The translations under genes and the position numbers were made by a program. Shown here one piece after another: positions 22,960 through 37,495 of a stretch of 64,000 nucleotides of DNA. Source of the stretch: Methanosphaera sp. (GTDB lineage Archaea; Methanobacteriota; Methanobacteria; Methanobacteriales; Methanobacteriaceae); NCBI RefSeq assembly GCF_022768985.1, contig NZ_JALEKL010000004.1, positions 62,001 through 126,000 of the forward strand, written 5' to 3'. The notes beneath the pieces are model-generated. The model was not told where the DNA came from. It made no database searches and worked only from the letters and a program-made list of their open reading frames with translations. Position 1 is the first letter of the stretch. The number at the start of each line of letters is the position of its first letter.

Positions 22960-23244
22960 ATGAAAATACCACGAGAAAGAAGGACCTACTGTCCAAAATG
23001 TAAAAAACACACAGTACACGAAGTACACACATCCAAAAAAAGAAAAGCAAGTGAATTAAAATGGGGACAACGTCAGTTCAGACGTGTAACCGCAGGTTAC
23101 AGAGGTTACCCAAGACCTTTACCATCAGGAAGTAAACCTATTAAAAAATTAGATTTAAGATACAAATGTAAAGAATGTGGAAAAGCTCACATTAAAAGAG
23201 ATACCAACATCCGTGCAGGAAAAGTTGAATTTGTATCACAATAG
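22960..23244 (+). CDS. rpl44e: 50S ribosomal protein L44e
   Basis: Zinc-binding large-subunit protein near the E site. [20 protein letters not shown] at the N-terminus and [11 protein letters not shown] near the C-terminus supply the four cysteines. [18 protein letters not shown] is the family core. 94 residues, normal. SD GAGGTGA. It leads an operon with S27e and aIF2-alpha. Confidence 0.97.
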
Positions 23245-28984: not shown

Positions 28985-29743
28985 CTAAATTTCGAAGTAT
29001 TGTCCAATATCTGGAATTGTAACTCCAGTTTTTCCATTACTGTTTTTAGTTCTACTTACATAAACTTTAATATGTGAGAAGTTAGGATCTGATGTTGTAG
29101 CATCAAATACTATACATTCACCGTTAGCTTCAGTATTTACAATTGTACCTTCACTTGATGTAATTGTAATATCACCAAGATCAGCTTTCTGTAGTAATGA
29201 GTATGCTTGTGGAACTGTTAATTTATCTACAGATGGAGTATCTGGGTTAGTAGGATTTGTCGGATTAGTTGGATTTGTCGGATTTGTTGGATTTGTCGGA
29301 TTTGTTGGATTTGTTGGGTTGGTTGGATTTGCTGGGTTATCATTAGGGTTGTTTTGGTTGTTGTTTTGGTTGTCTCCTTGACTATTTCCTGATCCATTAC
29401 CTGCTGGTGTTGCTACTGGATTGTCTGCTGAAATTAAACTCTGGCTAGCTTTAACATTTCCAGCTGAATTATTATTTGAAGCTGCATTTGCTTGAGCTGC
29501 TTGATCTTTTGCTTGTTGAGCTTGTGCCTGTGCTTGTGAAATTCCTTGTCCGTCTGATCCTTTACCATTTGCTTGTCCATCTGCTTGTGCTGGTGCAGAT
29601 AATGTATCTGTTATTGATGATTCTTCTGTATCAACACTTGCAAGTGGGTTAAGCATGTCATCGTCTATATTTATTTGATATGTAGCTGCAATTATTCCTA
29701 TAAAGGCTACTATGACAAGAGCTAATATTATCTTCTTATCCAT
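28985..29743 (-). CDS. Membrane-anchored surface protein with Asn-Pro-Thr repeats
   Basis: Hypothetical exported protein of 252 residues. Residues about 4-22 form an N-terminal signal anchor (KIILALVIVAFIGIIAATY). A long low-complexity part follows: Gln/Ala-rich (ISQAQAQAQQAKDQAAQA), Asn-rich, then about nine tandem NPT tripeptides near 142-172, encoded by 9-base DNA repeats. The C-terminal 75 residues form a compact domain of alternating strands (LTVPQAYSLLQKADLG, FSHIKVYVSRTKN). The repeat looks like an extended cell-wall spacer displaying this domain. No named family recognised. Confidence 0.72.
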   Translation of the reverse strand: MDKKIILALVIVAFIGIIAATYQINIDDDMLNPLASVDTEESSITDTLSAPAQADGQANGKGSDGQGISQAQAQAQQAKDQAAQANAASNNNSAGNVKASQSLISADNPVATPAGNGSGNSQGDNQNNNQNNPNDNPANPTNPTNPTNPTNPTNPTNPTNPTNPTNPDTPSVDKLTVPQAYSLLQKADLGDITITSSEGTIVNTEANGECIVFDATTSDPNFSHIKVYVSRTKNSNGKTGVTIPDIGQYFEI

Positions 29744-30363: not shown

Positions 30364-30426
30364 TTTCTTTTCATTCCTTTTTTATTGTCTCTGATTTTAT
30401 TATTTATTTTAATAATTATATAAATA

Positions 30427-30439
30427 TAACCTAAGGTTA
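30427..30439. promoter_or_regulatory. Operator-like palindrome 1 (over the regulator gene's start site)
   Basis: TAACC-TAA-GGTTA, a perfect five-base inverted repeat with a three-base spacer. On the minus strand a TATATAAA box lies at 30463-30456, which puts the transcription start of the ArsR-like gene near 30434, inside this palindrome. Binding here would block that gene's own transcription. Confidence 0.65.
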
Positions 30440-30500
30440 CTAAAAGATCATAACATTTATATAGTATGAAATAATTATTTATAATTAAGAAAAGTTTTTT

Positions 30501-30515
30501 GTAACCAAAGGTTAT
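30501..30515. promoter_or_regulatory. Operator-like palindrome 2 (upstream of the grpE TATA box)
   Basis: TAACC-AAA-GGTTA core with flanking G and T (30501-30515), the same arms and spacing as palindrome 1. It lies 15 bases before the TTTATATA box (30530-30537) of the grpE-dnaK transcript. Confidence 0.65.
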
Positions 30516-30529
30516 TAAAATAGGAAACC

Positions 30530-30537
30530 TTTATATA
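30530..30537 (+). promoter_or_regulatory. TATA box of the grpE-dnaK transcript
   Basis: TTTATATA preceded by the purine-rich GGAAACC, which resembles an archaeal TFB recognition element. The expected start is near 30557-30560, leaving a 5' leader of about 60 bases before the grpE ATG. Confidence 0.6.
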
Positions 30538-30579
30538 CTAAATCAAATTTAAAATAATAAATAAGAGAAAAATAATTTT

Positions 30580-30594
30580 GTAACTTTGAGTTAC
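30580..30594. promoter_or_regulatory. Operator-like palindrome 3 (grpE leader)
   Basis: GTAACT-TTG-AGTTAC, six-base arms and a three-base spacer, the same GTAAC half-site as palindromes 1 and 2 with one base changed in each arm. It is about 20-35 bases downstream of the predicted grpE transcription start, a usual site for archaeal repressors. Confidence 0.65.
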
Positions 30595-30618: not shown

Positions 30619-31170
30619 ATGACAGAAGAAGAAAAAATCAAAGCAGAAACAATGCAAGATGAAGAAAACATAGAAGAATCCTCACAAGAAGAAAACACAG
30701 AACAACAAGAAGAACAACAAGAGGAAGAAAAAACAAAAGAAGAACAACTAGAAGAACAACTACAACTATACAAAGACAAAATACAAAGACTACAAGCAGA
30801 TTTTGAAAACTTCAAAAAACGCTCAGAAAAAGACAGACAAGAATTTGTCAAATATGCCAATGAAGGAGTAATACTTGCAATGCTGGAGGTATATGAAGAT
30901 TTAGAACGTGCACTTCAAGTTGAAGATGATAAAGATCTAAGAGAAGGAGTAGATTTAATATACAAGAAATTTACAAAAGTCTTAGAAGATCAAGGTGTTT
31001 GTGAAATAAAAACAGAACATGAAAAATTTGACCCATACAAACACGAAGCACTACTAACAGAAAATAATGATGATTATGAAAACAATGAAATCATCCAAGA
31101 CTTACAAAAAGGATACACTCTAAATTCAAAAGTCATACGATACTCAAAAGTAAAAGTATGCAAAAAATAA
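30619..31170 (+). CDS. grpE: Nucleotide exchange factor GrpE
   Basis: DnaK nucleotide exchange factor, 183 residues. The Glu/Gln-rich N-terminal third is a charged extension leading into the long coiled coil ([20 protein letters not shown]). The canonical segment [20 protein letters not shown] starts the core, and the C-terminal beta domain has [20 protein letters not shown] with RYSKVKV. First gene of grpE-dnaK with dnaJ following. The SD is weak (GGGTG). Confidence 0.96.
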
Positions 31171-33292: not shown

Positions 33293-34447
33293 ATGGCAGA
33301 TAAGAAAGATTATTATGAAGTATTAGGTGTAGACCGTGATGCTGACCAGAAAACAATAAAAAAAGCATATCGTAAACTTGCAATGAAATATCACCCTGAT
33401 GTAAATGATGGTGATAAGGATGCTGAAGAAAAATTCAAAGAAGTAAGTGAAGCATACGGTGTACTATCAGATGAAAGTAAAAGACAAAGATATGATCAGT
33501 TTGGTCATGCAGGAATGGATGGATATTCACAAGAAGACATATTCAACAACATAAACTTTGAAGACATCTTTGGTGGATTTGGAGGTTCATCAGGTGGATT
33601 TGGAAGTATTTTTGACTTATTTGGATTTGGTGGAGGATCATCAGGACAAAGAGTAGAACGTGGAAGTGACCTTGTACAGACACTTAACATTACACTTGAA
33701 GAGGTAGCAACAGGAACATCAAAAGAAATTAGTGTAACCCACAGAAAACTCTGTCCAACATGTAATGGTTCAAAAGCAGAACCAAACTCTGCTGTAAATA
33801 CATGTAGTCAATGTAATGGGTCAGGACAGGTAAGACAAGTACAAAATACACCACTTGGACAGTTTGCAACAGTATCAGAATGTCCAACATGTCATGGTGA
33901 AGGTAAAGTTATTGAAAATAAATGTCATGACTGTCTTGGTAGTGGACTTAAAAAGATTACAGAAAAAATCACAATCAACATACCAGCAGGTGTAGAAACT
34001 GGAACTAAACTAAGAGTAACAGGTGAAGGTGATGATTCTGTAAATGGTGGAGTAAGTGGAGATTTATATGTTACAATCAATGTCCTAAAACATGATCTTT
34101 TCACAAGAAATGGACAGGACTTATACTATGAACTTCCAATAAGCTATGTACAAGCATGTCTTGGTGATCAGGTAGAAGTTCCAACAATTGATGGTAAAAA
34201 TGCAAAACTTACAATACCAGCAGGTACACAGACAGAAACCTCATTTAAACTAAGAAATGAAGGACTTAAACATGTAAAATGGTCTGGTGTTGGAAACTTA
34301 TATGTAAAAGTACATGTTGTTGTTCCAAAACAATTATCAGAAAAACAAAAAGACATACTCAAAGACTTTGCACATGAAAGTGGAGATGAAATCTCTGAGG
34401 TAAGACAAGGATTCTTTGATAAAGTAAAAGAAACCTTAAATAAATAA
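33293..34447 (+). CDS. dnaJ: Chaperone protein DnaJ (Hsp40)
   Basis: DnaK co-chaperone, 384 residues. The J domain (about 5-70) has [18 protein letters not shown] with the HPD motif. A Gly/Phe-rich linker ([20 protein letters not shown]) follows, then four CxxCxGxG zinc motifs ([32 protein letters not shown]) and the C-terminal peptide-binding domains. AAGGAG precedes the ATG. A gap of about 180 bases after dnaK lets it have its own promoter, though none of the GTAACC-type palindromes recur there. Confidence 0.97.
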
Positions 34448-35669: not shown

Positions 35670-36641
35670 TTAGTTTAAAGCCTCTTTTATGGCTTTTGCT
35701 AATTCTTCTGCTAATTTTACAGGTACAGCATTACCTATCATTTTATATCCATCATTTATTTTTTTATAAAAGAATTTATAATCATCATCAAATGTTTGAA
35801 TTCTTGCACATTCACGTACAGATAATCTTCTATATGGCTTAGGTGTAGAAGGATCAAATATACGTTTATCTTTATCTACTTTTATCATCTTATTTGCTTG
35901 AGGATGACAAGGTGCATGTCTTCCACTTGCTTGAATTGTAAATGATTGTTCATCCCATGATCTAACCCTATTTCTTGACATATACATTGATGAAAAATCA
36001 CCAAGCATATATTCATGATTTATAAGGGGAAGTTCTACTTCATCTATGCTATCTTTCTGTGTAGCTAGTGGTTCTTCCATATTACCAATAGCATCTCTTA
36101 GTGTAACTTTAGATTTATATGGCTTTGGAAATTTAAAGTTAACTTCAAGTTCATTTCTAAATCCAACAATAAATACTCGTTTTCTATCCTGTGGAACATT
36201 ATAGTCACTAGCATTTAAAACTTGGTAGTGAAGTGTATATCCAATAGTTCTAAGATTTTCTGTAAATTTATCAAATTCATCTTTATGAGTTTTACACACC
36301 ATTCCAGGTACATTTTCCATTAAAAAGAATTTAGGCTTTTTTTGTTTTATTAGGCGTAGATATTCATATAAAAGTTGACCTCTAGGATCTTTAATTCCAC
36401 GCATACTTCCTGCAAGACTCCAACTTTGACATGGAGGTCCTCCAATAAACCCATCAACAGTAGGTATTTCATCTGCTGTTATATCTTCTATGGATTTCTT
36501 ATTCATTTCTAGGTGTTGGTTGTATTCATATGTCTGCCAACATCCACTCCAGTTATCATTTGCAAAGACTATTTCATATCCTACATTTTGAAATCCTTTA
36601 TCAAGTCCACCAATTCCTGAGAAAAATGATGCTACTTTCAT
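35670..36641 (-). CDS. DNA (cytosine-5) methyltransferase of a type II restriction-modification system
   Basis: Modification enzyme, 323 residues. Motif I is FFSGIGGLDKGFQNVG, motif IV GGPPCQSWSLAGS with the catalytic Cys, motif VI FLMENVPGM, motif VIII VPQDRKRVFIVGF, and motif X MIGNAVPVKLAEEL at the C-terminus. The short variable region before VRSWDEQSFTIQASG fits a simple recognition site. Its ATG overlaps the TGA of the upstream gene in ATGA, so the nuclease and methylase are coupled with the nuclease first. Not part of the conserved chromosome backbone; probably acquired. Confidence 0.94.
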   Translation of the reverse strand: MKVASFFSGIGGLDKGFQNVGYEIVFANDNWSGCWQTYEYNQHLEMNKKSIEDITADEIPTVDGFIGGPPCQSWSLAGSMRGIKDPRGQLLYEYLRLIKQKKPKFFLMENVPGMVCKTHKDEFDKFTENLRTIGYTLHYQVLNASDYNVPQDRKRVFIVGFRNELEVNFKFPKPYKSKVTLRDAIGNMEEPLATQKDSIDEVELPLINHEYMLGDFSSMYMSRNRVRSWDEQSFTIQASGRHAPCHPQANKMIKVDKDKRIFDPSTPKPYRRLSVRECARIQTFDDDYKFFYKKINDGYKMIGNAVPVKLAEELAKAIKEALN

Positions 36642-37495
36642 AGTTTATCCCACCTTATTAAAACAGCATCCATCATTGAATCTACCTCATTAGGATCTTT
36701 AATTTTAATAAAACTGGTTATTATATCTTCATCATTTAAAATTGATTCTCTATCTTCTTGTGGGAATGATAAAAATTTTTCCTTTTTCATTAAACTAACT
36801 ACTGTGAATTCTTGATTATTTTTATTATAATTTAACTGGTCTTTAAATATGTGAAATGGGTTAGATATAATCCACATTCCTCGTATTCTAAGTTTACTAA
36901 TTCCTAAGTTATCAATTTGATTAATTCTACCTAGTTCATTAGTTTTTTGAGTGTTTGGAATAACACTAATAGTATCTTGTAATAGCTTTTTAAAATTACT
37001 ATATAATGTGTTATCTGCAATATAACAATCTCCATACACAAGAAATAGAAATTTTAAGCATGAAGTTCTATTTTCAAAACTACCAATTGAGTATATTAAA
37101 TCTTTTTTATCCCATTTTTCACAGTTTTTACATGTTTCTGTTATGAGTGAATCATTAGAATATAGATTTGATTTTGGTGTAGAACTATTTAATTGAATTT
37201 CTTTAGGAAAACCATTAACTTTTTTAACTTCAACTGCATCTCCATTAGCTATCATAAAATCAGGTGGATTATTTGAATTTCCAAGATATGAAAAATATTT
37301 CTCATATTCATCTTCCTTATTTATAATACTATATGAATCAGCAAAAGAATCTTTTATAAAGTATTCTAAACCTTTTCCAACATTCTGTATTTCATTTTCA
37401 AGATTAATATCTGATTTTGGAGGATACAACTTATTGAAATTAAATTCAGAATTCTTTTTTATATTTAAAATTGCTTTTAGAATATTAGTTTTCAT
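36638..37495 (-). CDS. Probable type II restriction endonuclease (NgoPII-like)
   Basis: Predicted partner nuclease, 285 residues. PPDFMIANGDAVEVKKVNG (about 76-94) has the PD-(D/E)xK pattern: Pro-Asp, then E-V-K. It continues with LNSSTPKSNLYSNDSLI and CKNCEKWDKKDLIYSIG, which I associate with the NgoPII restriction enzyme family (recognition GGCC); that attribution is from memory and unchecked. Gene order and the ATGA overlap with a cytosine-5 methylase strongly support a restriction role. AT-rich codon use is the same as in its neighbours. Confidence 0.75.
   Translation of the reverse strand: MKTNILKAILNIKKNSEFNFNKLYPPKSDINLENEIQNVGKGLEYFIKDSFADSYSIINKEDEYEKYFSYLGNSNNPPDFMIANGDAVEVKKVNGFPKEIQLNSSTPKSNLYSNDSLITETCKNCEKWDKKDLIYSIGSFENRTSCLKFLFLVYGDCYIADNTLYSNFKKLLQDTISVIPNTQKTNELGRINQIDNLGISKLRIRGMWIISNPFHIFKDQLNYNKNNQEFTVVSLMKKEKFLSFPQEDRESILNDEDIITSFIKIKDPNEVDSMMDAVLIRWDKL

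Follow-up and report, generated by a model that had tools for sequence, protein, structure and literature searches.

A predicted operator shared by a Phr/HSR1-like regulator gene and grpE-dnaK-dnaJ in Methanosphaera and related methanogens

Three 13-bp palindromes, S1, S2 and S3, were found in the gap between grpE and a divergent winged-helix regulator gene in the window, by which we mean the whole 64,000-nucleotide stretch of Methanosphaera DNA analyzed here (Table 1). We consider it likely that S1–S3 are operators through which this Phr/HSR1-like regulator represses both itself and grpE-dnaK-dnaJ, and from which stress releases it. A regulator dimer would read TAAC-N5-GTTA at the TATA box of each promoter or close to it, and the bound dimer would block TBP/TFB or polymerase at the regulator promoter as well as at grpE. 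Under stress, the dimer would be released and the regulator gene and grpE-dnaK-dnaJ transcribed. The sequence itself shows that the regulator is related to Phr and that a conserved operator stands at both putative promoters; by analogy with Phr and HSR1 we infer that the binding protein is this one, that it represses when bound and that heat lifts the repression. Joint control of the regulator gene and grpE-dnaK-dnaJ by one dyad-binding factor, as an earlier note on this DNA had suggested, is the reading that best fits the sequence.

Table 1. Genes, TATA-like boxes and predicted operators around the regulator/grpE gap (window positions; ".", no strand).
Feature	Position	Strand	Basis
Winged-helix regulator, Phr/HSR1-like, 167 aa	29860..30363	-	ORF; Pfam HTH_5 1.4e-12; Phr_regulator; PDB 2p4w
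TATA-like box, candidate regulator promoter (putative function)	30418..30424	-	ends 2 bp from S1; beside S1 in same-genus loci too
S1, predicted operator aTAACCTAAGGTTAc / TAACCTAAGGTTA	30427..30439	.	sequence, clustering, same-genus alignment
TATA-like box (S1 lies 16 bp to its left), candidate for an upstream promoter of grpE or, read on the minus strand, of the regulator	30456..30462	+	putative function
S2, predicted operator gTAACCAAAGGTTAt / TAACCAAAGGTTA	30502..30514	.	sequence, clustering, same-genus alignment
grpE TATA-like box, 15 bp 3' of S2	30530..30536	+	putative function
S3, predicted operator gTAACTTTGAGTTAc / TAACTTTGAGTTA, putative grpE leader	30581..30593	.	sequence, clustering, same-genus alignment
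grpE	30619..31170	+	Pfam GrpE 4.4e-42
dnaK, 619 aa	31251..33110	+	ORF; orthologues in relatives 75-96% identical, 3' of grpE
dnaJ	33293..34447	+	Pfam DnaJ, DnaJ_C, DnaJ_CXXCXGXG

The positions of the palindromes relative to the genes were examined. S1 lies 63 bp upstream of the regulator ATG and does not cover the start of the gene, where the earlier note had placed a palindrome; only a guessed transcription start would fit that description. S2 precedes the grpE TATA-like box, as had been proposed, but with 15 bp between them, which corrects the wording "just before", and the palindrome assigned to the grpE leader is S3, which keeps that place in the putative leader. An operator followed by a TATA-like box occurs twice in tandem (30427-30466 and 30502-30540), about 75 bp apart, and resembles a duplicated promoter module. 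On the 3' side of the regulator gene, the window encodes a protein (28985-29743, minus strand) that is predicted to be secreted, contains a stretch of NPT repeats and has no Pfam or NCBIfam match. Farther along, two adjoining ORFs at 35670-37495 (minus strand) resemble, by their translations alone, a C5 cytosine DNA methyltransferase and an accompanying endonuclease.

Sequence inspection, the count in the window and shuffled controls confirmed that the gap holds three matching palindromes. The pattern TAACYNNNRGTTA (TAACYN3RGTTA) was found four times in the window, where 0.38 copies were expected; none of 100 shuffles reached four. In the whole genome (1.6 Mb) it occurs at five places, three of them in the regulator/grpE gap, while the reversed-pattern control gave six. 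The fourth window match, at 23087, falls within a short ORF whose translation, as we read it, resembles ribosomal protein L44e, and the remaining genome match (L005) is upstream of an ORF without a family match. When up to one mismatch was allowed, the window showed no excess of the pattern (9 copies against 12.4 expected), and the case therefore rests on the exact core, its clustering and its conservation.

To describe conservation, we compared 103 loci, made up of 90 of the 114 family matches (30 returned by searches and 60 spread over genera) and 13 loci from the wider order and class. The regulator is present in 112 of 119 family genomes and in 94 of 95 phylum genomes that are at least 90% complete. 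A divergent grpE lies within 900 bp of the regulator in 90 of the 103 loci; three of the other 13 hold less than 500 bp of upstream sequence. TAAC-N5-GTTA was found in 142 copies in 67 of 76 distinct regulator-grpE gaps, whereas spacers of 0-4 and 6-15 gave 0-2 each. The looser form TWAC-N5-GTWA was present in 99 of the 103 regulator loci (other spacers 0-22, with spacer 9 giving 22 and the rest at most 7) and absent from four (L060, L066, L074 and L212). Conservation upstream of grpE in sister species had been named beforehand as the test of the proposed control, and the palindromes are present there. The dominance of spacer five in the gaps of relatives indicates that the true spacer is five and that the inner C/G or T/A pair is not general. 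Thus, the half-site and three-base spacer described earlier are shared by the three window copies, but the conserved unit is TAAC-N5-GTTA with a CTWWAA flank.

The usual operator form outside the genus is TAACTTTTTGTTA, and the second half is GTAA in genomes that appear to be Methanothermobacter-like. Among the distinct gaps, the right flank CTWWAA is nearly invariant and the left flank is AT-rich. The S1 block could be aligned in 20 of 20 same-genus gaps, and S2 and S3 where the gap is longer; in these gaps, conservation of the half-site columns was above that of any of 254 rotations. These results suggest that the sites are most likely conserved binding sites across a whole group of methane-making archaea.

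Loci in which grpE is displaced or was not found nearby were examined in a second set of 80 named loci from GTDB genomes, which overlaps the 103-locus set. A divergent grpE lay within 1.1 kb in 64 of these and a site was present in 74; eight of the 16 loci without such a grpE end about 520 bp or less from the regulator. At L115, L117 and L161, grpE is 1.9-3 kb away, and sites were found at the regulator with separate ones just 5' of grpE. The same pattern was observed in G060 (L082, L236), again with sites beside each of the two genes. The presence of sites at both genes after displacement argues that they serve each promoter and are no neutral leftover, and retention at the regulator is as autoregulation predicts. 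S1 and the regulator-side sites at the displaced-grpE loci lie within the regulator's own putative promoter region. No grpE was found in the 3-6 kb examined at L108, L111, L112, L116 and L118, which are from termite Methanovirga-type or related MAGs; L108, L111 and L116 keep the regulator with neither an operator-like site nor grpE in 3-5 kb upstream.

The regulator protein was compared with known families and structures. The NCBIfam model Phr_regulator (NF053602) matched residues 4-92, the N-terminal half, with an E-value of 4.6e-29, and its score of 101 bits against the curated cut-off of 320 bits indicates that the window protein is not Phr proper. This model matched all 22 regulator proteins scanned, with the best E-value of all families listed. 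Phr of Pyrococcus furiosus (2p4w) came first among solved structures (phmmer E 3.7e-24, profile E 2.9e-31) and was the top Foldseek match (E 2.3e-9). VIA-align gave Phr a Z of 13.8 over 95 residues, tied with ArsR folds at 13.2, in a list that covers residues 1-88 and does not separate the two. The predicted model was of fair quality only (pLDDT 74.9, pTM 0.47; residues 83-95 below pLDDT 50), and the family profile extends weakly into the C-terminal domain. By these comparisons, the winged-helix domain of the regulator is closest to Phr. The aligned part is the winged-helix half. Phr has 202 residues against 167 here, and the window protein lacks an NCBIfam whole-protein match. The Phr consensus is TTTANNTNNCNNNNNGNNANNTAAA, a sequence that did not turn up in the open-licence PMC papers searched.

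HSR1 of Archaeoglobus fulgidus is likewise an autoregulated heat-shock regulator, and its motif, given as CTAAC-N5-GTTAG (PMC9133787), has a core, TAAC-N5-GTTA, equal to that found here. In this comparison of motifs, the outer C and G of the HSR1 motif differ here (A at 85% and C at 96%), and all three window sites have two mismatches each to the full motif. The literature treats both Phr and HSR1 as repressors (PMC9133787) and places them in one family, arCOG01684, that is found in most euryarchaea (PMC5852551). Phr is reported to bind a palindrome in heat-shock promoters, its own included (PMC9133787, PMC10746257), and its named targets, which include hsp20, an AAA+ ATPase and PbaA, contain no DnaK system (PMC10746257). 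The known targets of HSR1 are the operon that encodes it with hsp20 and an AAA+ ATPase, and dnaK is not among them (PMC5852551, PMC10653856). Characterized archaeal heat-shock regulators number only two; both are from hyperthermophiles, and their known targets leave out DnaK (PMC9133787, PMC10653856). The open-licence PMC papers searched yielded no Phr/HSR1-type regulator tied to dnaK in methanogens, and older primary papers may mention one. The circuit had been thought distinct from Phr, but among solved structures the regulator is closest in sequence to Phr, and the operator core is that reported for HSR1. Judged by sequence, the regulator and its predicted operator are of the known Phr/HSR1 kind, and solely the DnaK target set is distinct.

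Promoter architecture was compared across the 76 gaps. In 57 of them, the operator starts inside the TATA box (TTTATATAAC-N5-GTWA), and the distance between adjacent operators is 33-35 bp in 57 of 75 pairs; this spacing and the overlap with the TATA box suggest that the pair brackets the start region. The layout of the window genus differs, S1 and S2 being mostly 15-16 bp before a TATA-like box and S3 in the leader. Many sister species carry an extra operator abutting the TATA-like box, which is lost in this genome.

We further examined whether the operator occurs outside the gap. TAAC-N5-GTTA was found at 11 places in the genome; the gap accounts for 3 of these, 4 fall within ORFs and the other 4 are intergenic. 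The intergenic sites precede psmA (L010), psmB (L008), lon (L012) and the ORF at L005, and none of the 11 exact sites was seen to precede an hsp20 or AAA+ ATPase gene. Genome-wide the motif shows no enrichment: it has 11 copies against 29 of its reversed control, and it is also below that control in 10 of 12 other genomes of the genus sample, the exceptions being G074 and G036. Counts alone therefore cannot define the regulon. In G041, 11 of 15 non-gap sites are inside ORFs, which suggests that most isolated sites are due to chance; its four intergenic ones precede psmB, an infB-like gene, a HcyBio gene and an ORF beside an integrase-like one.

In the orthologue check, all five genus genomes had a TWAC-N5-GTWA site before psmA (-111 to -127). 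The overall count was 9 of 29 genomes, including three of g4 and one of g6 with the site at -207 to -220, whereas other spacers gave 0-3. A lon site was present in three of five genus genomes (exact in G000 and G036, a variant in G028) and in G074 (L346); the upstream sequence of lon in G018 and G002 is different and apparently coding. The overall lon count was 4 of 10, one being a weak match at -32 (L311), with row L312 dropped as its start is off the contig. The lon sites resemble S2 in geometry, with 14-16 bp to a TATA-like box in two of three; at lon of this genome the box, read by eye, is GTATATGA. For psmB, three of five same-genus genomes (exact in G000 and G028, a variant in G002) and G041 (L334) have a site, and the family-wide count of 3 of 30 is not above that of other spacers (0-4). 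The motif search at proteasome genes suggested in the earlier note thus returned sites before psmA and psmB here, but with mixed conservation. In genus g10, TAACTTATTGTTACTAAAA or a near form precedes an ArsA/Get3-type ATPase gene in seven of eight sampled genomes (L226-L232, from G033, G052, G025, G049, G039, G010 and G044; Pfam was run on L227 alone), and one of these seven has TAACTTTATGTTACTAAAA before this gene. These findings suggest that psmA and lon are probably in the regulon of this genus and that psmB and the ArsA-type ATPase are possible members. We read the psmA, lon, psmB and ATPase sites as a putative lineage-specific extension of the regulon.

Other sites were seen in single genomes. 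G066 (L235) has a perfect family-type operator 5' of a ferritin-like gene (PF00210), and isolated sites were seen close to other genes, each in one genome (L234, L237-L240 and L242). The window itself carries a gene of the proteasome assembly chaperone family (TIGR00162; 25934-26722, plus strand). No exact operator was found upstream of it, although the related PbaA is listed as a Phr target in P. furiosus (PMC10746257).

The main rival to repression is a dual-mode factor, because S2 and the lon site are upstream of a TATA box: the protein would activate from the S2 and lon sites upstream of BRE/TATA and repress from the sites at the TATA box and in the leader. Archaeal activators often bind upstream of the TATA box, as S2 does, and position-dependent sign is known among other archaeal winged-helix regulators. 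S1, S2 and two of the three lon sites share the order of operator then TATA-like box, and in the rest of the family operator and TATA box run into each other. We regard dual action as unlikely, however, since a repressing role is what has been described for the best-known relatives, Phr and HSR1 (PMC9133787). It is also conceivable, and clearly improbable, that the sites are read by a different DNA-binding protein encoded elsewhere while the neighbouring regulator binds something else. Adjacency is not proof, and of the five loci without grpE in the 3-6 kb examined, three are site-less though the regulator is kept; against this, the site core equals that of HSR1, a relative of the regulator, and the site stays by the regulator gene after grpE displacement.

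The dyads might instead be conserved core-promoter elements (BRE/TATA, initiator context) or AT-rich by-products, as many sites touch TATA boxes and the psmA and psmB sites fall in blocks conserved throughout. The exact spacer of five, the several copies per gap, the near absence elsewhere in the genome and the leader copies (S3) away from any TATA box make this most improbable, but for the psmB site alone a core-promoter element is a possible reading. HrcA with CIRCE is a functional analogue in bacteria, an autoregulated repressor acting before grpE-dnaK-dnaJ, whereas its operator and protein family are unrelated to those here. Inheritance of HrcA/CIRCE control with the bacterial chaperone operon would accord with the acquisition of the DnaK system from bacteria (PMC3564930), but it is hardly credible: the window contains no match to the CIRCE consensus with up to three mismatches, and the regulator has no HrcA family match in Pfam or NCBIfam.

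The conserved sites give the DnaK system a specific, easily tested predicted operator in a large group of methanogens from the gut and from the environment; genomes in which grpE is displaced are ready-made comparisons. Archaeal DnaK, DnaJ and GrpE are of bacterial origin (PMC3564930), and a native archaeal regulator would therefore have taken over foreign genes, a clean case of such control over bacterially acquired genes. The kind of regulator and operator was already known; what is new is that its targets, in a largely mesophilic lineage, are the DnaK system. A bolder and less likely reading is that in Methanobacteria an ancestral archaeal heat-shock repressor captured the chaperone operon acquired from bacteria and became a broad regulator of proteostasis (DnaK, the proteasome core, Lon and an ArsA/Get3-type ATPase, the last in one genus). 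Such a regulator would be tuned to mesophilic temperatures and might be subject to feedback by free DnaK, for which HrcA with GroE and sigma-32 with DnaK are analogies.
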